The notes under the pieces: model-generated
What the model saw: the letters and a program-made list of their open reading frames with translations, nothing else
Database searches by the model: none
Told to the model about the DNA's origin: nothing
Translations under genes and position numbers: made by a program
Shown: positions 6,211 through 54,893 of the stretch, one piece after another
Layout: the number at the start of each line of letters is the position of its first letter
How positions within the stretch are numbered: position 1 is the first letter of the stretch
NCBI RefSeq assembly: GCF_003259695.1
Contig: NZ_PZJH01000001.1
Coordinates: 930,001-994,000, forward strand
DNA: 64,000 nucleotides
Direction: 5' to 3'
Source: Macrococcus epidermidis
GTDB lineage: Bacteria; Bacillota; Bacilli; Staphylococcales; Staphylococcaceae

Positions 6211-7638
6211 TTAAGTAAAGACATATAAATCATTAAACAGTTGATTTAGAAGCGTTTTTCCGAACTTTTTTTGAACATGATAACTTTGCTGTTCAAAGGA
6301 GATTTTAACTTGTTCATTGCATTGCGCACAACTTTTACACTTTAATATATTATCATGCTCCATACTTTTTAAATCTCTTACATTTTGTTTGTTTAAACTG
6401 GATTGATTTAATTTTTGTGTGAAACAGTTTTTTTCATTAATGTATTCAATCATTTGTGTCAATGCTGTTCGCTTCATATACTGGTGTTGCCTAATTTTTC
6501 GTATTATTTCTTCTCTGTTATACTTTGCTGAAAGTATATTCATTAATTCCTGCTTTTCCTCAGTTAGTGCTGCACCTTGAAAATATAAATCTATCTCAGT
6601 ATGCGTCAATTCATTTAATTCATTAAGACGGTATGGAAGGATCTCATCATTTGGACTATATAATAATATAGATTGTGATAATTCACCATCTCTCCCTCCT
6701 CTACCTATCTCCTGAATAAACTGAAAAATAGATTTAGGCATATGATAATGTATTACTGTTCTAATATTTGATTTGTTAACACCCATACCAAATGCATTCG
6801 TCGCACAAATCACCTGTATTTCATCATTCATAAAGCGTTGTTGTACTGACATTCTTTCTTCATATTGCATATCTGCATGATAGCGTTCTACCATTATACC
6901 TTGTTCTAAAAGATATCTATACACGTATTCAACTTGTTTCTTTGAAGAAAAATAAATAACAGTTGCAGCAGATGCTTTTAAAGTTTCTAAAATAAGGGAC
7001 AGTTTGTCTGCATCATCATTTGTATTTACTACGGATAAAAAGATATTCTCTCTTTCCGTTAAATAATCCATTACTGTTAATTCTCTTTTAATAACGTGCT
7101 GAATATCATATATCACTTGATCATTTGCAGTGGCGGTTAATGCAATAACCTGTGCATCATAATAAGACACAATTTCATCAATCATCAAATAATGGGGGCG
7201 GAATTCATACCCCCATTCAGAGATACAATGTGCCTCATCTATTACAATTGCTTCGCAACGATAGTGCTTTAAATAATTCAGACCATTTGTAACCAGCCAT
7301 TCAGGTGAACAATATATAAAATCATATGTCTCAATACGAGATAGTAATAATTGTTTGTCCATATCATCTAACTGACTATGTATACAGCATGCTTTGATCT
7401 TTTTTTGTTTAAGCTGCATAACCTGATCTTCCATTAATGCAATTAATGGCGATATGACTATGGTCTTTTTATTATTTACCAGCATCGGCAATTGGAAAGT
7501 TAGAGATTTCCCAGAACCTGTCGGAAGAAGCGCTAATACATCATGTCCCTCAAGAATCTTTTGAACAATTTCAATTTGATTTTCTCGTAAGCTTTCTATA
7601 CCAAAAGTTTCTTGTAAAATTTTATTGATTGCATTCAT
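6211..7638 (-). CDS. recQ: RecQ-family ATP-dependent DNA helicase (short form)
   Basis: 3'-5' superfamily 2 helicase for recombination and fork repair. Helicase motifs are in order: motif 0 (SLRENQ), Walker A (LLPTGSGKS), DEAH (VIDEAHCISEWG), motif III (ALTATA) and motif VI (QEIGRGGRDG). A RecQ-type zinc region follows, with one Cys and then CKSCAQC. At 475 residues it lacks the HRDC domain of longer RecQ, like Bacillus RecS. The start at 7638 overlaps the ypbB stop codon by 4 nt (ATGA) and has GGAG 8 nt upstream, which points to translational coupling with ypbB. Confidence 0.9.
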   Translation of the reverse strand: MNAINKILQETFGIESLRENQIEIVQKILEGHDVLALLPTGSGKSLTFQLPMLVNNKKTIVISPLIALMEDQVMQLKQKKIKACCIHSQLDDMDKQLLLSRIETYDFIYCSPEWLVTNGLNYLKHYRCEAIVIDEAHCISEWGYEFRPHYLMIDEIVSYYDAQVIALTATANDQVIYDIQHVIKRELTVMDYLTERENIFLSVVNTNDDADKLSLILETLKASAATVIYFSSKKQVEYVYRYLLEQGIMVERYHADMQYEERMSVQQRFMNDEIQVICATNAFGMGVNKSNIRTVIHYHMPKSIFQFIQEIGRGGRDGELSQSILLYSPNDEILPYRLNELNELTHTEIDLYFQGAALTEEKQELMNILSAKYNREEIIRKIRQHQYMKRTALTQMIEYINEKNCFTQKLNQSSLNKQNVRDLKSMEHDNILKCKSCAQCNEQVKISFEQQSYHVQKKFGKTLLNQLFNDLYVFT

Positions 7639-8588
7639 TTGCATTGCTCCATTTTATATTTTACGATTGCGATTTTTAGTTTGAAATAATCCTTTATCGG
7701 CGAAATTTCATACAATGTCTTTAGTTTCCCGTATCGATTGTTTTCGATAATTTCTTTGATGGTTATATATTCTTGTTCTGATAGATGATTTGAAATATCC
7801 AGAGGATAGTCTTTAATCAATATTTCAATAATATGATCCTGTATCGTATGTATTCTTACTGATTTATTTCGCTGAATCATATCTATTGAGTCGCCATTAA
7901 TTAATCGCTGATACGTATCACTCGTATTGATATGCAGTGGCGTTCTGACATATAAATAACTTAATAACTTATATTCACGCGTCTTAAATGCATGAAGCAT
8001 CAAATTCTTTTCGGTGATCATTTGAGATTTTATCTCATCAATACTTAAGTTAAATTGTTTAGATAATTGTTCATAACTATCAGGTCTTATTTGATGACCA
8101 TGCAGAAAATGTATAAAATAACAGCTACCAGTTGATTTAAAGATATACTGCGATAAATCATCAACTTCCTGGGCTAACTGAATAAATTGATCTTCTTTTT
8201 TAATTTTCGTAAATAGTTGCTTAACATGTTGTTGTATAAATAAACGATTTGAACTTGGTAAATAGTCTGAAGAATGATAGAGATATTCTGAAACTGTTTG
8301 AAGCAATAATACAAATGAAGAAAAAGATAGCTCACTTGCATAGTAAAAATATGGATATAGTTTGAGATTATTATTAAGACTGATATTTTCCTCACTATCA
8401 TTACGAACGAGTCGAGTGACAGCCTCAAATGAAACATTTGGATACAATTCATAAACTGGTAATAAATCCTGCATCACTGCGTCGAAATAAGTTTGCTGAG
8501 TTCTTGCACCAATTAATAATTTCCATAAACTTTTAACTGATTTGTCTGGTAAGTAATGCGACTTTATATAACGATTAATCGATTTCAT
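7635..8588 (-). CDS. ypbB: YpbB-like helix-turn-helix protein
   Basis: Conserved protein of Bacilli encoded immediately upstream of the RecQ-like helicase. It has 317 residues and no transmembrane segment. The middle part (about 165-235, with LSKQFNLSIDEIKSQMITEK) resembles a helicase-associated helix-turn-helix. The C-terminus overlaps the recQ start by 4 nt, so the two proteins are probably made together and may act together. The family has no firmly established function. An AGGGTGA ribosome-binding site precedes the ATG. Divergent from fer. Confidence 0.75.
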   Translation of the reverse strand: MKSINRYIKSHYLPDKSVKSLWKLLIGARTQQTYFDAVMQDLLPVYELYPNVSFEAVTRLVRNDSEENISLNNNLKLYPYFYYASELSFSSFVLLLQTVSEYLYHSSDYLPSSNRLFIQQHVKQLFTKIKKEDQFIQLAQEVDDLSQYIFKSTGSCYFIHFLHGHQIRPDSYEQLSKQFNLSIDEIKSQMITEKNLMLHAFKTREYKLLSYLYVRTPLHINTSDTYQRLINGDSIDMIQRNKSVRIHTIQDHIIEILIKDYPLDISNHLSEQEYITIKEIIENNRYGKLKTLYEISPIKDYFKLKIAIVKYKMEQCK

Positions 8589-46228: not shown

Positions 46229-46663
46229 ATGAAATTTAATGTAAACTTTAATAATCATCTTAATAAGGATGTTATCCATTTAGAAAGTCACGAAATTAAC
46301 AAAAAATTTGTAAATGATTTGATTAATATTTTTGAGACTAAAATTACATTGATTGATATTAAATCTAATAAATCTATAAAAGTATCAGTAAATCAAATCG
46401 AATCTATTGAATCTTTTTCTCATTTGTCCAAAGTAAATTTAGTTGATAATTCACTATTTTATATCAAAGGTAGGATTAAAGAATTTAGTTATTTTACCCA
46501 ATATAAAATAGTTAAAATTAATAATAGTCAGTTGTTTAATTTAAGTCATATCAACCAAATCTCTTCAGATAAGGCATCACGATTGTTAATAATAAGTAAT
46601 TCTAATAAGAAATATATTGTCAGCAGATACTATTCACGAGAAATTAAGGAGATGTTATTATGA
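46229..46663 (+). CDS. LytTR-domain DNA-binding protein
   Basis: Protein of 144 residues whose C-terminal two thirds (about 40-144) have the beta-rich pattern of a LytTR domain: ITLIDIKSNKSIKVSVNQIESIES, then the YKIVKINNSQLFNLSHINQI recognition region. It has no receiver domain. AAGGAGGAA precedes the ATG. It overlaps the next gene, a DUF3021-like membrane protein, by 4 nt. This is the make-up of LytTR regulatory systems, in which the membrane protein restrains the regulator. Confidence 0.75.
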   Translation: MKFNVNFNNHLNKDVIHLESHEINKKFVNDLINIFETKITLIDIKSNKSIKVSVNQIESIESFSHLSKVNLVDNSLFYIKGRIKEFSYFTQYKIVKINNSQLFNLSHINQISSDKASRLLIISNSNKKYIVSRYYSREIKEMLL

Positions 46664-47073
46664 TTAAAGAATTAATACAAAACTTCTTTCAAACTTCATT
46701 TCTTAGCTTGATTTGGTTAATGACTATTACATCTTTGTTCAATACAGATATCACAGTTCATTATAATTACTTCTGGAGACTGATTTTAATTTCTATATTA
46801 TTTGGACTTACTTTTGGTGTTCTATATCCATATTTATGGAAGTATTCAACTACTAAATCTAATTTTAATGTTTTTGTTTGTTCAACTGATAATACATTCA
46901 TTATTTTATGTTCTATTTATCTGTATTCTAGTCGTTTGTTTACTCAAGTTTATCCATTTATATATGCAATTGTAGTAATAAATTTGATTTTACATTATGT
47001 AATCTTCAAGTTATATTCAGATTATTTAAATCAAAAATATATTATGGAAATTCAAAATAGAAAAAGGTTATAA
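46660..47073 (+). CDS. DUF3021-like four-helix membrane protein
   Basis: Protein of 137 residues with four transmembrane helices (about 12-29, 38-60, 72-92, 96-118) and a basic C-terminal tail. Size, topology and coupling to a LytTR gene (4-nt ATGA overlap) fit DUF3021. Its likely job is to hold the LytTR protein inactive at the membrane until a signal arrives; the signal is unknown. Confidence 0.7.
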   Translation: MIKELIQNFFQTSFLSLIWLMTITSLFNTDITVHYNYFWRLILISILFGLTFGVLYPYLWKYSTTKSNFNVFVCSTDNTFIILCSIYLYSSRLFTQVYPFIYAIVVINLILHYVIFKLYSDYLNQKYIMEIQNRKRL

Positions 47074-47111
47074 TTATTGAATTATTTACTTTGAATGTGA
47101 TAAATAAAATA

Positions 47112-47143
47112 AGCAAAGGAGTAATAATAGATACTCCTTTGCT
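47112..47143. terminator. hairpin between the LytTR operon and the DUF2089 operon
   Basis: AGCAAAGGAGTA pairs perfectly with TACTCCTTTGCT around an 8-nt loop. The minus-strand side continues TTATTTTATTTAT, so it probably ends the DUF2089 operon and perhaps both. Confidence 0.65.
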
Positions 47144-47196
47144 ACTAATAATTTTAATTATTTTAAAAATAAATTACGAATTAAAAATTTGTGAAA

Positions 47197-47481
47197 CTAT
47201 AAATCTTTACTTTTCATTTTATCCAATTCTAAAACTTTTTTTCTATGATATTCCTTTCTTGCAGAATTATATTGACCTGCTAGAACAACCATACCAATTA
47301 CATACAATACTAAAACCACCCATAAAGGCCATTGATTGTCATTCATATAAAAGGATATTGCATATACTGTACAAATAAGCGGAACAACTAGTCCTAACCA
47401 TTTAAATTTTGTTGAAGATAATATATATTGAGCACCACAAATTGAAGCAAATATTAAAATTCGTATTATATAATCTACCAT
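47197..47481 (-). CDS. small membrane protein paired with DUF2089
   Basis: Protein of 94 residues with three hydrophobic segments (about 4-22, 28-46, 51-70) and a basic helical tail ending KMKSKDL. It is a paralogue of the protein at 47939-48220 (shared GAQ.-LSS, .WLGL, and KMK-(S/T)-(K/R)-DL). The ATG at 47481 begins one base after the DUF2089 stop and has AAGGAG, so the two are coupled. Function unknown. Confidence 0.75.
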   Translation of the reverse strand: MVDYIIRILIFASICGAQYILSSTKFKWLGLVVPLICTVYAISFYMNDNQWPLWVVLVLYVIGMVVLAGQYNSARKEYHRKKVLELDKMKSKDL

Positions 47482-47482
47482 A

Positions 47483-47779
47483 CTAATTCTCCTTTTCACT
47501 ATTATAAAGACTTATCAATTTCTTAGCTTCTTCCAAACTAATCTTTTCGTCGATTGCTAGCGATTTAATGTAACTCACAAGTCCAGAATTGTCTTCTTTA
47601 GATGCTATTTCTATTTTCTGTATTAAACTATTCAACCTAATTCTTACTGTTGGATAAGATACATCATACATCTTTGCAATACTTTTTAATGATCCTGATT
47701 CAAGAACAAAATTCTTCATAAATTCAATGTCTTCTTTATCTAATTTTAATAACCATTCTGGAATCTCATTTCTATCCAT
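47483..47779 (-). CDS. DUF2089 family putative regulator
   Basis: Protein of 98 residues with the DUF2089 pattern (PEWLLKLDKEDIEFMKNFVL and SLKSIAKMYDVSYPTVRIRL). The second block is a helix-turn-helix like that of sigma-factor region 4, so it should bind DNA. AGGAGGTA precedes the ATG. Encoded with one small membrane protein and divergent from a paralogue of that protein, which suggests it controls the shared intergenic promoters. Confidence 0.8.
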   Translation of the reverse strand: MDRNEIPEWLLKLDKEDIEFMKNFVLESGSLKSIAKMYDVSYPTVRIRLNSLIQKIEIASKEDNSGLVSYIKSLAIDEKISLEEAKKLISLYNSEKEN

Positions 47780-49486: not shown

Positions 49487-49525
49487 AAATAGGCATGCTC
49501 ATTATCGAGCATGCCTATTTTTTAT
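49487..49525. terminator. bidirectional terminator between the DUF418 gene and bcd
   Basis: A 13-bp perfect stem (AATAGGCATGCTC with GAGCATGCCTATT) with a 6-nt loop and T6, between convergent genes. Confidence 0.88.
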
Positions 49526-50622
49526 ACTCTACGTCTAGAGATCAAAGAATGTTCATTTAAACTAAATGTACTACGTACACGCATCATTTGATCAATACGC
49601 TCTTCTGCTAAACGTTCAGCTGCTAATGCTGTAGAAATGTTATCACGTTTCGCGATTTCAAATACTTTATCCATTTGATCGTATATTTCATTAACTTTCT
49701 TTGTTGCACGATCTTCGTTATAGCCATTTAATTCATCAGCTACATTAATTACCCCACCAGAATTCACGACAAAGTCAGGTGCATAGATGATGCCACGTTC
49801 CTGCAACATCGCTGCATGTTTTTCCATGTCTTTCAACTGGTTATTAGATGATCCACATACTGCTTTAACTTTCAATTGTGGAATTGTGTCATCATTAAGA
49901 ATCGCACCTAATGCACATGGTGCAAAGATATCCGCTTCTACACCGTAAATTTCATCAGGCTTCACTGCTGTTGCACCAAAGTCATTTACTGCTCTATCAA
50001 TTGATTCCTGGAAGATATCCGTAACGATTAATTTCGCACCTTCTTCATGTAAATATTTACATAAAGTATAAGATACATTTCCTACCCCTTGTACAGAAAT
50101 TGTCTTACCTGCTAAACTATCATCACCGAATGCTTCTTTCGCCGTACGTTTCATCGCACGATATACCCCTAATGCTGTCATTGGACTAGGATTTCCACTA
50201 GATCCGTAGCTTTCTGATAATCCTACGACAAAGTCAGTTTCTTCATGCATAATATCCATATCAGTAACTGTTGTACCTACGTCTTCAGCTGTAATATAAC
50301 GTCCGTTTAAACTTTGAATATAACGGCCTAATGCTCTAAATAAAGCTTCTGATTTATCTTTTTTTGGGTCCCCGATAACAACTGTTTTCGCGCCACCTAA
50401 ATTAAGTCCTGCTGCTGCATTTTTATATGTCATTCCACGTGCTAAACGTAATGCATCTTCAATTGCTTCTTCTTCTGTTTCATATGGCCACATTCTGCAT
50501 CCACCTAATGCAGGGCCAAGTGTTGAATCATGAATCGCGATAATCGCTTTTAATCCACTTGCATTATCCTGGCAGAATACAACTTGCTCATAGTCATATT
50601 GTTCTAAAGTCTTAAAAATCAT
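49522..50622 (-). CDS. bcd: branched-chain amino acid (leucine) dehydrogenase
   Basis: NAD-dependent oxidative deamination of Leu, Val and Ile. Glu/Leu/Phe/Val dehydrogenase family: catalytic segment [13 protein letters not shown] and [14 protein letters not shown] (active Lys), NAD motif [12 protein letters not shown], and CGSSNNQL. Length 366 matches Bacillus Bcd. AAGGGG precedes the ATG at 50622. In Bacillus it lies in the bkd operon close to yqzF and spo0A; here the neighbours remain but ptb, buk and bkd genes are not adjacent. A cre-like site lies about 175 bp upstream. Confidence 0.93.
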
Positions 50623-50794
50623 TTTATTTCCCCTTTTCATAAAATAATTATTAGATTAACACTTCCTATTTTACATTAAATATTATGTTTATAAAACAAA
50701 AATATTCATTTTTAAATTTATTTCTGTATATTTTAGTTCGATTTCCGATATATTATTATTATATTCTATTGAATATTTATGTACTTCAACAAAC

Positions 50795-50911: not shown

Positions 50912-50920
50912 TGTTATAAT
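50912..50920 (+). promoter_or_regulatory. extended -10 promoter of yqzF
   Basis: TGTTATAAT is a perfect extended -10 (TGnTATAAT), 19 nt before the ATG at 50940. Confidence 0.6.
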
Positions 50921-50939
50921 GCTATTGGTAGGTGAATTT

Positions 50940-51191
50940 ATGAAAAAGATGATTGCACTTCTTGTATTAGTTATTCCAATTTACTTTGCAGGTTTAGGTA
51001 TCAAATGGATGAGAGATGCTGTTTTTGGTATTCTTGTCCCAGAACTCCATTTTATTTGGCTGCAATTTTTAATTGGATTTATCTTAATGGTACTTGGTGT
51101 TAGTTTTGTAGGAGGCTATATTCTGCATATCGAAAAGAAAAGTAAACGTGCACAAGAAAAATTTTATAAAAAACAAGAGAATCAATCCTAA
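50940..51191 (+). CDS. yqzF: DUF2627 family membrane protein (YqzF-like)
   Basis: Protein of 83 residues with two transmembrane helices (about 4-22 and 36-58) and the motif GIKWMRDAVFGIL, as in Bacillus YqzF, which lies at the same position between yqiK and the bcd cluster. Function unknown. The ATG at 50940 follows GGTAGGTG. Confidence 0.78.
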   Translation: MKKMIALLVLVIPIYFAGLGIKWMRDAVFGILVPELHFIWLQFLIGFILMVLGVSFVGGYILHIEKKSKRAQEKFYKKQENQS

Positions 51192-51224: not shown

Positions 51225-51959
51225 TCAATGTTGTTTTAACAAATAATCATTTTTTAGTTTAACCGCTACTTCTACTTCATCTGTTATAATGGCATCGATT
51301 TCTTCTTCCAGCCAATACTGTATTTCTTTTGCGCGATTAACGGTATAAACACGGGCTGGTAAATTATATCGTACTACTTCTTGTCTTTTCGCGTCGTTCA
51401 TATAACTTTTTCCGTAAGGATGCACTGATTTAATACCATGTGACTCCATATATATCCACGGCTCTCCTAATTCTTTATTCGTAAGTAATGCTGTGTCATA
51501 GCTCGAATCAATCTTTTCTATGTACAATAAACTTTCAAGATTAAAGCTTGATATAATAATACGCTCTTTCATGTCATATTGACTTAATAGTTTAATGAGT
51601 GTTTCTTCAAGGACACCTTCCGTAACACATTTTATTTCAATATTTAACGTCATATCGGTTGTAATGATCCAGTCCATCACTTCTTTTAACGTCGGTACTT
51701 GTTCATCAGTTACTTTAAATAAACCATTCTTATTACGTGCAATTTTGATTTCATCTAATGTTAATTGATTGACATGACCTTTTTGATTGGTAGTACGATT
51801 TAAGGTTGGATCATGGATGACAATAATTTCATTATCGACAGTCATATGAATATCAAGCTCTATACCATCTGCACCATGTTCATAGGCTTTTTTAAAGCTT
51901 AGCATCGTATTTTCTGGATAAAGTGCTGCATACCCTCTATGTCCAATTATTTTAGTCAT
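51225..51959 (-). CDS. glycerophosphodiester phosphodiesterase (YqiK-like)
   Basis: Hydrolyses glycerophosphodiesters to glycerol 3-phosphate and an alcohol. The GDPD signature is complete: GHRGYAALYPENT, IELDIHMTVDNEIIVIHDPT, and EIKC. It has no signal peptide, so it acts inside the cell, like Bacillus YqiK. The ATG at 51959 has GGAGG and overlaps the spo0A stop by 8 nt, so it belongs to the recN-spo0A transcript. Confidence 0.88.
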   Translation of the reverse strand: MTKIIGHRGYAALYPENTMLSFKKAYEHGADGIELDIHMTVDNEIIVIHDPTLNRTTNQKGHVNQLTLDEIKIARNKNGLFKVTDEQVPTLKEVMDWIITTDMTLNIEIKCVTEGVLEETLIKLLSQYDMKERIIISSFNLESLLYIEKIDSSYDTALLTNKELGEPWIYMESHGIKSVHPYGKSYMNDAKRQEVVRYNLPARVYTVNRAKEIQYWLEEEIDAIITDEVEVAVKLKNDYLLKQH

Positions 51960-52644
51960 GATAATCCTCCATAAGGTAATCAATCAGTTCGCCACTCGTC
52001 GGTCGATTTAATTTGCCACGTTTGTTAAAGACTTCCTGTAAACCGTTATCCCATGCTCTTTCAATTGCATGTCGAATAGAACGTTCTACATTCGCGTTCT
52101 TTACATTGTTTCTCTCTGCAATCTTTGGATATAAATCAATTGTTAAATGTACTTTCTTTGCTCGTTCCTGCTCGCTTCTGGCAGATAATATTTCAATGGC
52201 ATCCTGTATATATCGCGTACCTTTATGTTTTTCTTTAAATCCTAACTGTTCTAATTTATTTTGTCTGAGGACAGATTCATCAATATTACAGATCTGACAA
52301 ATACGATTGACAAAATTATCAAAATTAATCGGCTTTAAAATGAAATAATCAGCTCCGGAATCCATTGCTTCTGACAGCACAGAATCTTTTCCAAACGCAC
52401 TTAAACAAATAATTTTAAAAGGATGATTCGTTGGAATATGCTCTTTTAACAGCGTAATTCCATCGATATGAGGCAATATCAGGTCAAGTAACAGTAAATC
52501 AAATTCAATATCATTGATCATATTAAGGGCATCCTTACCGTTATGACACATTCCGACGACCTGCAAATTATGTTTTTCCAGATGTGTTTTTATTGTTACT
52601 GCGAGTTCTCGTGAATCTTCAATAATCGCAACTTTAAGTACCAT
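51952..52644 (-). CDS. spo0A: Spo0A-family response regulator
   Basis: Two-domain regulator homologous to the master regulator of sporulation. The receiver (1-120) has Glu9-Asp10, phosphoacceptor Asp54 (LLLDLILPH), Ser82 (LSAFG) and Lys104 (LKPI). The C-terminal domain has the Spo0A-specific LYPKIAERNNVKNANVERSI recognition helix region, then RHAIERAWDNG and PTSGELIDYL. At 230 residues it is shorter than Bacillus Spo0A through a short linker and C-terminus. It begins 16 nt after recN, with spoIVB absent. No sporulation gene lies in the window, so its targets must be other processes. Confidence 0.9.
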   Translation of the reverse strand: MVLKVAIIEDSRELAVTIKTHLEKHNLQVVGMCHNGKDALNMINDIEFDLLLLDLILPHIDGITLLKEHIPTNHPFKIICLSAFGKDSVLSEAMDSGADYFILKPINFDNFVNRICQICNIDESVLRQNKLEQLGFKEKHKGTRYIQDAIEILSARSEQERAKKVHLTIDLYPKIAERNNVKNANVERSIRHAIERAWDNGLQEVFNKRGKLNRPTSGELIDYLMEDYHD

Positions 52645-52660: not shown

Positions 52661-54328
52661 TTACTTCTTATTTTGATTGATTAATTCAGCTGCATGTTCT
52701 AATGTGAGTGGTGTCACTTCAACACCTGAGATCATTCTTGCAACTTCTTTTATGCGTGATTCTCCATCGAGTTCAGTTACTCTTGTAGTCGTCCTGTCAT
52801 CTTGTTCTTTTTTCTCGATATAAAGATGATGATCACTAATTGCAGCAACTTGTGGCAAATGTGAGATACAGATAACCTGTATATGTTGTGAAATATCATA
52901 CATTTTCTCAGCCATTTTTTGAGCGACTTTCCCAGAAACACCTGTATCTACTTCGTCGAATAAAATTGCTGTCTTGCCTTTAGATTCTGCAAATATACTT
53001 TTTAACGCAAGCATCATACGACTTAGTTCTCCACCGGATGCTATTTTCTCAAGTGGTTTCAATGGTTCACCTTTATTTGGACTAATCATAAATTCTAAAG
53101 ATTCAATACCAGTTGCAGTTGGTTCTGTCTTTGTAAATGCCATTTCAAAGTTTGCACTTTTCATCTCTAAATTATGAATTTCATCCAAAATTTCATTGCG
53201 CAGTGTTTGAGCTACTCTACGTCTTGCTTTGCTTAAATCATTACCTAGTGATAAAAGTTTTGACTTTGTCTGTTGTATTTCGTTCATCAATTGAGTAGTG
53301 GATTCTTCAATATTTTCAATCGTATTAATTTCTTTTTCTAACTCATCAATAAAAGGTATCAGTTCATTAAGAGGTTTTCCATACTTACGTTCCAGAAATT
53401 GTATTTCATTCATACGCGTCTCTAACTGATTAAGTTCATTCTCATCATATTCATTTTGAGTCATTGCATCATGTAATGCATGTTTCGCATCATCTAATAT
53501 ATAATATAGTCCTTCAGAGTCTTCTAATGTCTTACTAAACTTGTTCGGAATAATTTCATCCACTTCTTTAAGTGATGCATTAAATTCAAATAGTAAATCT
53601 AATATTTGATTCTCTTCGCTTAATAGATTGACTGATTTCGTTAAAGCATCATTAAGTTTCTCATAATTCTGCAGTCGATTAATTTCTTCTGTTAACGTTT
53701 CTTTTTCTGAGGCGATTAATTTCTTCTCACTTAATTCTTTATGCTGATATTTTATTAAATCTAACCGTTGTAACAATTCTTCATCTTTTTGCTGTAAGTT
53801 TTTCAGTTCATTCGTTTTCTCAACATATTGTTTAAATGTTGTCTTGTACTCCGATAGTAATGTATCATAATTACCTTTTGCATAATCATCTAATAATGTC
53901 AGATGATATTTTGGTTTTAATAGTGTCTGTGTTTCGTGTTGGCCATGAATATCCAAAAGCTCTTGCATGATACTTTTTAATTCTGTTAATGTTACGGTCT
54001 GATTATTGATCTTACATATGCTTTTACCCGTCTTTAAAATTTCACGTTTAACCAACATAAAATCATCTAATGGAATATCTTTTTCAATGAGCATATCCTT
54101 TACACGAGGATTATGGTCTATATCAAATATACCTTCAACAATCGCCTTATTCTCACCATGACGCACTAAATTCTGACTTGCACGCATTCCGATAAGTTGT
54201 CCGATTGCATCGATAATGATTGATTTACCTGCACCAGTTTCTCCACTAAGTACTGTTAAACCATCTTTTAATTCAATTTCTAATGCTTCGATTATTGCAA
54301 ACTGTTTAATAGATAACGACAAAAGCAT
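52661..54328 (-). CDS. recN: DNA repair protein RecN
   Basis: SMC-like ATPase acting early in double-strand break repair. Walker A SGETGAGKS near residue 30, two long coiled coils (about 150-370), signature GGELSRMMLA, Walker B ILFDEVDTGVSG. Length 555 is normal. It lies 14 nt after argR, as in most Bacilli. Confidence 0.95.
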   Translation of the reverse strand: MLLSLSIKQFAIIEALEIELKDGLTVLSGETGAGKSIIIDAIGQLIGMRASQNLVRHGENKAIVEGIFDIDHNPRVKDMLIEKDIPLDDFMLVKREILKTGKSICKINNQTVTLTELKSIMQELLDIHGQHETQTLLKPKYHLTLLDDYAKGNYDTLLSEYKTTFKQYVEKTNELKNLQQKDEELLQRLDLIKYQHKELSEKKLIASEKETLTEEINRLQNYEKLNDALTKSVNLLSEENQILDLLFEFNASLKEVDEIIPNKFSKTLEDSEGLYYILDDAKHALHDAMTQNEYDENELNQLETRMNEIQFLERKYGKPLNELIPFIDELEKEINTIENIEESTTQLMNEIQQTKSKLLSLGNDLSKARRRVAQTLRNEILDEIHNLEMKSANFEMAFTKTEPTATGIESLEFMISPNKGEPLKPLEKIASGGELSRMMLALKSIFAESKGKTAILFDEVDTGVSGKVAQKMAEKMYDISQHIQVICISHLPQVAAISDHHLYIEKKEQDDRTTTRVTELDGESRIKEVARMISGVEVTPLTLEHAAELINQNKK

Positions 54329-54814: not shown

Positions 54815-54860
54815 TGTATAATTATACAAATTATTTTAGCATACATACAATTTATTGTAT
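54815..54860 (-). promoter_or_regulatory. possible ArgR operator region
   Basis: TGTATAATTATACA (54815-54828) is a perfect 14-bp palindrome, and ATACAATTTATTGTAT (54845-54860) is a near-perfect one 16 bp further upstream. Paired AT-rich palindromes are what ArgR uses, but the match to the known ARG box is loose. Confidence 0.4.
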
Positions 54861-54866
54861 ACGAAA

Positions 54867-54893
54867 AAACCACCGAATTTCCCCCGGTGGTTT
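54867..54893 (-). terminator. terminator of the dxs-tlyA transcript
   Basis: On the minus strand AAACCACCG and CGGTGGTTT form a 9-bp stem followed by T runs. It overlaps the tlyA stop and separates it from argR. Confidence 0.8.

Follow-up and report, generated by a model that had tools for sequence, protein, structure and literature searches.

A Spo0-type phosphorelay probably kept for a transition-state switch in non-sporulating Macrococcus epidermidis and its relatives

Why would a non-sporulating coccus retain spo0A? The question is raised by a locus of Macrococcus epidermidis within a stretch of 64,000 nucleotides, here called the window, in which an intact open reading frame with an ATG start adjoins recN, the conserved place of spo0A (Table 1). 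The encoded protein was originally predicted to combine a receiver carrying Asp54 with a Spo0A-type C-terminal domain, and profile searches bear this out. The Pfam receiver domain Response_reg scores 77.9 bits (E 8.5e-22), above its curated cut-off, and Spo0A_C scores 73.1 bits against a cut-off of 25 (E 2.1e-20); the ground for rejection named in advance, a failure of the C-terminal domain to match its family, is thus not observed. Asp54 is invariant in a five-sequence alignment, and the catalytic columns of the receiver are conserved in all 23 sequences that extend over them. Among solved structures, the whole protein finds its best sequence matches in Spo0A receivers, while the C-terminal part has the solved Spo0A C-domains 1FC3 and 1LQ1 as its sole solved matches and aligns with both through its recognition helix (..NVERSIRHAIERAW). 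A predicted model (pLDDT 84.5, pTM 0.57) also matched Spo0A receivers and added little. The protein shares 100% identity with the Spo0A of Macrococcoides goetzii CCM 4927 over the reported segment and 98% with that of M. bohemicum. No second Spo0A_C gene occurs in the genome of the window, which comprises 2.49 Mb in 31 contigs. The gene is an orthologue of Bacillus Spo0A.

Table 1. Features of the spo0A locus and of the further relay genes; positions refer to the window unless a genome and contig are given (G000 is the genome of the window).
Feature	Position	Strand	Basis
bcd-like leucine/amino-acid dehydrogenase gene	49522..50640	-	ORF list, profile match
yqzF-like DUF2627 gene	50919..51191	+	Pfam
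glpQ/yqiK-like glycerophosphodiester phosphodiesterase (GDPD) gene	51225..51959	-	Pfam
spo0A, 230-aa response regulator	51952..52644	-	Receiver and Spo0A_C above Pfam cut-offs
Spo0A_C DNA-binding domain, residues 129-226; linker and Bacillus FGYTVSMTKA-type loop missing	51967..52260	-	Pfam and alignments
Recognition helix region KNANVERSIRHAIERAW, residues 183-199	52048..52098	-	1FC3/1LQ1 alignment, conservation; helix 183-208 in predicted model
Receiver domain, residues 5-115; E9, D10, phospho-acceptor D54, S82, K104	52300..52632	-	Domain limits and invariant columns
recN, directly upstream of spo0A	52661..54328	-	ORF list, Pfam
Promoter-like site TATACA-17-TAAAAT, TG before -10, upstream of argR	54833..54861	-	Chance-level promoter hits in region
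KinD-like orphan kinase	G000:C11:406127-407656	-	Full-length best NCBIfam match KinD
Spo0F, 122-aa stand-alone receiver	G000:C27:56297-56644		Between ywjG-like DUF2529 gene and fba
Spo0B, 160-aa protein with SPOB_a	G000:C11:1107690-1108172	-	Between rpmA and obg

Automatic annotation may nevertheless not call this protein Spo0A, since it scores 152 bits against the cut-off of 200 of TIGR02875, the NCBIfam equivalog model, and does not reach the naming threshold; the Spo0A of M. vitulinus likewise falls under it. We read that cut-off as governing naming rather than marking a structural trait, and the score was probably reduced by the missing linker and loop. A short linker and a shortened C-terminus had been proposed from the single sequence, and both are real: in each of the 24 genomes that carry Spo0A, the interdomain linker is absent or strongly reduced, and the FGYTVSMTKA-type loop that precedes the last helix is shorter than in Bacillus. 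In Bacillus, this loop region is implicated in the contact with sigma-A. Its loss, read by analogy, makes it plausible that the Spo0A studied here is specialised for repression.

The gene order recN, spo0A, yqiK-like gene, yqzF and bcd is as first described. Only 16 bp separate recN from spo0A, so that spoIVB is absent between them at this locus. The ATG of the glpQ-like gene overlaps the stop codon of spo0A by 8 nt, and the two genes are probably translationally coupled. Upstream, a strong terminator-like hairpin (54867-54893) precedes the promoter-like site of argR, which could possibly mark where an argR-recN-spo0A-glpQ transcript begins, although promoter hits hereabouts are no more frequent than chance predicts. 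Towards the bcd side of the window, a LytTR-domain gene is followed by small membrane-protein reading frames and a DUF2089/SHOCT gene (46229-47779).

The original prediction also held that only the sporulation protease gene had been lost. This is accurate for the locus but not for the genome, from which the sporulation sigma factors have gone too. A complete sporulation gene set had been named as a finding that would argue against a non-sporulation role, and a genome scan for sigma-factor matches found no SigF, SigE, SigG or SigK. Its five matches comprise SigB beside RsbU, RsbV and RsbW, an ECF sigma factor with its anti-sigma factor, a SigA-like match in a long frame and two weak ones, and none stands in a SigF, SigE, SigG or SigK context as far as these were examined. 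In the survey by Galperin (2012; PMC3533761), Macrococcus caseolyticus is listed as lacking the same sporulation genes and is described as definitely non-sporulating. The presence of an intact initiation pathway, described below, could be taken to indicate cryptic or conditional sporulation under conditions so far unseen, but with no candidate for any of the four sigma factors, with spoIVB absent from its place and with the losses reported there for M. caseolyticus, we regard this as extremely improbable.

A search of the whole genome for further relay components had been suggested together with the original prediction, and it recovered Spo0F, Spo0B and an orphan KinD-like kinase, as well as 0A boxes at abrB. 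In a genome-wide census of histidine-kinase and receiver domains, with kinase-regulator pairing read from neighbouring coordinates, three genes are unpaired: one kinase, one stand-alone receiver and Spo0A. The kinase finds its best NCBIfam match, over its full length, in KinD (255 bits, under the model cut-off of 775; the M. vitulinus copy reaches 231 bits). Its N-terminal region of about 200 residues is bounded by a hydrophobic stretch on either side, and the H-box HEIKNPLT is invariant among these genomes. At the six specificity positions, as used by Davidson (2018; PMC6136694), the kinases of these genomes read T-x-G-F-[DE]-[LI] versus T-x-G-F-Q-[LI] in Bacillus sporulation kinases. In the genome of the window, the kinase gene is convergent with a Trk/Ktr potassium transporter-like gene, itself located after an HtrA-like protease gene (G000:C11:398000-414000, 6727-8070).

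The best solved match of the stand-alone receiver is B. subtilis Spo0F, and its interface residues are ENILEI versus QGILEV in Bacillus. Every Spo0A and Spo0F sequence that covers these positions retains the acidic residues, the Ser/Thr and the Lys of the receiver. The interface residues of Spo0A have drifted more than those of Spo0F and the kinase (SELTTHN versus NELLEYD in Bacillus). The B. subtilis sequences behind these comparisons and that of the loop agree with the PDB entries over the parts that are aligned to them, save for one Tyr/Ser difference in Spo0F. The third component, Spo0B, is weakly conserved. A phmmer search of solved structures returned no convincing homologue, and the assignment, made at the sequence level, rests on a SPOB_a match of 36.9 bits, on the motif [KRQ]HD..NQ.Q[LM] (in short HD..NQ.QL), invariant among these genomes, and on position, the site between rpmA and obg serving to recognise Spo0B (PMC6136694, PMC12826061).

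These genes are distributed as a set. Spo0A_C occurs in 24 of the 108 genomes of the family, spread over four genera (9, 6, 8 and 1 genomes), and in none of the 84 genomes of a fifth, Staphylococcus-like genus or of 49 further genomes of the order, where the first genus is Macrococcoides and the third includes Mammaliicoccus vitulinus, while the fifth is taken, from size and species number, to be Staphylococcus and the second Macrococcus. The statement that staphylococci lack spo0A accordingly holds for all 84 genomes of the Staphylococcus-like genus, but fails for the genus of Mammaliicoccus vitulinus, the former S. sciuri group, in which 8/8 genomes keep it. The orphan KinD-like kinase is found in exactly the 24 Spo0A-positive genomes and in 0/84 of the Staphylococcus-like genus. 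In the same 24, spo0B lies between rpmA and obg, an interval that is a bare gap of 130-170 bp in each of six Staphylococcus-genus genomes, and spo0F lies just upstream of fba, where the Staphylococcus-genus loci that were read have none. Two copies are interrupted: spo0A is split by a contig end in G005, and the spo0F frame is broken in a Mammaliicoccus-genus draft assembly (G021:C12, about 1090-1415), through either an assembly error or decay of the copy. The module of kinase, spo0F, spo0B and spo0A was probably kept in Macrococcoides, Macrococcus and Mammaliicoccus after the loss of sporulation.

Between G000 and G002, dN/dS amounts to 0.05 for spo0A, 0.12 for spo0F, 0.12 for spo0B and 0.06 for the kinase, compared with 0.03 for obg. 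Judged from these ratios, the four relay genes are under purifying selection, Spo0B evolving faster than its neighbour Obg. It could be argued that an active Spo0A receives its phosphate differently, namely directly from another kinase or from acetyl phosphate, with Spo0F and Spo0B doing something else. Many Clostridia do as a rule phosphorylate Spo0A directly (PMC6136694), and the Spo0A interface residues do differ from those of Bacillus. However, the kinase is found together with Spo0F, Spo0B and Spo0A as a set and retains the TxGF[DE]L signature of relay kinases, and Spo0F and Spo0B have no known role other than relaying to Spo0A (PMC6136694), which leaves such a route unlikely.

The most informative regulatory site lies at abrB. 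The gene, which adjoins metS and encodes a protein with an AbrB_C domain (54.7 bits), is present in 24/24 Spo0A-positive genomes and in a single genome of the 84 in the Staphylococcus-like genus, the other 83 being without it; the search query was a hybrid of the first 40 residues from the genome and a tail modelled on Bacillus, to which all AbrB identities refer. The lone copy (G066:C2, about 101237; 54% identity to the hybrid query) occurs without Spo0A and without 0A boxes, and is probably either acquired or an odd survivor. In all 23 readable genomes, the abrB promoter carries two exact TGTCGAA sequences (0A boxes) in the same orientation after the -10 element, the upstream region of the 24th Spo0A-positive genome being masked by N. 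Counted from the first base of the -35 hexamer, the first box begins at exactly 43 nt in all 23, which would place it some 8 bp inside the transcript. The distance to the second box is 20-22 bp, or 11 bp in the Mammaliicoccus genus, corresponding to two helical turns or to one. The boxes are kept at this fixed promoter position while their flanks have diverged, and a tandem TGTCGAA pair was found at 0/211 other loci. Bacillus abrB is known to be repressed by a protein that binds shortly past the start, and the arrangement here is what repression of that type would lead one to expect. We infer that Spo0A~P represses abrB through these two predicted boxes. In the Macrococcoides genomes, the promoters of spo0A, spo0F and the kinase gene have no exact 0A box, indicating that the feedback loops of Bacillus are not kept there.

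These observations also bear on the view that the stage-0 genes are a decaying relic, left over without function from a recent loss of sporulation. The disappearance of the sporulation sigma factors, the faster evolution of Spo0B relative to Obg and the one spo0F frameshift would fit such a view. Against it stand the joint retention of five genes in 24 genomes of four genera, the low dN/dS values (0.05-0.12) with phospho-acceptor residues kept, and the two exact 7-bp sites that persist in 23/23 promoters amid diverged flanks, and we consider it very unlikely.

Another question is whether abrB is the principal target. The exact 9-mer TTTGTCGAA occurs at 17, 19, 9 and 37 sites in four genomes, versus 40, 36, 36 and 28 for a reversed-pattern control; most sites are coding, and as the control differs in CpG content, no enrichment or depletion is claimed. 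Within the 64-kb window, TTTGTCRAA occurs once, below chance expectation. A site at acpP shared by the four genomes was set aside, as it falls at the start of the coding sequence, where it spells Phe-Asp-Lys and is explained by coding constraint. In Macrococcus sp. TMW 2.2395, the gene of a secreted LysM protein has one TTTGTCGAA site 227 bp upstream (G004:C47:112500-115500). In the genome of the window, a secreted cell-wall hydrolase of the NlpC/P60 type (G000:C11:126100-129108, reading frame from 1579) is preceded by two exact TTTGTCGAA sites, at distances of about 60 and 197 bp, and is a candidate second target of Spo0A. These two sites lend some weight to the possibility that Spo0A mainly controls genes other than abrB, such as those for cell-wall hydrolases or competence, and that the abrB circuit is minor. 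Yet among the TTTGTCGAA sites common to orthologous places in the four genomes, the one 53 bp upstream of abrB alone is clearly intergenic, so that we find a mainly abrB-independent role possible but on the unlikely side.

Taken together, co-occurrence, synteny, catalytic and interface residues, selection and conserved boxes suggest that the relay probably runs a stationary-phase switch. We consider it likely, with good confidence, that the gene set is a complete, streamlined Spo0 phosphorelay whose output is a transition-state switch and not sporulation. The non-sporulation role first proposed for the protein is thereby, in its stationary-phase form and not as biofilm control, strengthened by the complete phosphorelay, the purifying selection and the 0A boxes conserved at abrB. 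In the mechanism we propose, for which phosphotransfer order, signal, repression and AbrB targets are inferred, the membrane-bound KinD-like orphan kinase would sense an extracellular signal and phosphorylate Spo0F, from which the phosphoryl group would pass to Spo0B and on to Asp54 of Spo0A. Spo0A~P would then bind the two 0A boxes just downstream of the abrB -10 element and block transcription, and the lowered level of AbrB would release transition-state and stationary-phase genes. The relay module would have been kept after the loss of sporulation and discarded in Staphylococcus as a unit. A stronger version is more tentative, and somewhat doubtful as a whole: that this is a self-contained, sporulation-free relay whose main or only direct job may be the repression of abrB, that Spo0A may have become a dedicated repressor upon loss of the sigma-A contact loop, and that the module, abrB included, may have been discarded at the origin of Staphylococcus.

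If this holds true, loss of sporulation need not take with it the transition-state half of the Spo0A regulon, and these cocci, with one kinase and one visible conserved target, would offer a small natural system for studying Spo0A apart from spores. It also raises the question of which regulators replace the kinase, Spo0F, Spo0B, Spo0A and AbrB in Staphylococcus. The presence of Spo0A in Macrococcus was already published in 2012 (PMC3533761), and a survey of 2024 inferred that the order Staphylococcales has lost its spore genes completely (PMC10868615). A search of literature available without subscription, which is no proof of novelty, returned no paper that treats this relay or these abrB sites for Macrococcus or Mammaliicoccus.

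Several known systems resemble this one. The closest is the Spo0 phosphorelay of Bacillus subtilis (KinA-E, Spo0F, Spo0B, Spo0A), in which Spo0A~P represses abrB and which has the same four components in the same chromosomal positions (rpmA-spo0B-obg, ywjG-spo0F-fba, spo0A on the recN side and abrB next to metS), the same catalytic residues and the same 0A-box core. Unlike B. subtilis, the relay described here operates, if it does, without sporulation sigma factors, with one kinase instead of five, with a Spo0A devoid of the linker and FGYTVSMTKA-type loop, and without 0A boxes at the Macrococcoides spo0A and spo0F promoters. The Spo0A of M. caseolyticus is the same gene in the same genus group, in a definite non-spore-former; in the passages of the 2012 survey considered (PMC3533761), it stands nearly alone, Spo0M, SpoVB, SpoVG and Jag being the only others named, and these passages are silent on Spo0F, Spo0B, a kinase or an abrB site. 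Exiguobacterium sibiricum, described in 2008 (PMC2615787), is likewise non-sporulating and has spo0A, kinA, kinB, spo0B and a Spo0F homologue, a retained relay that was mentioned there only briefly, but this case concerns a single genome of a different family, with neither target DNA nor evidence of selection. Finally, the direct Spo0A pathway of Clostridia (PMC6136694) also joins an orphan kinase to a Spo0A output; in contrast to the present system, it does so without Spo0F and Spo0B, and its kinase interfaces read NVSAQV and SVGLQL, whereas those found here read TSGF[DE]L.
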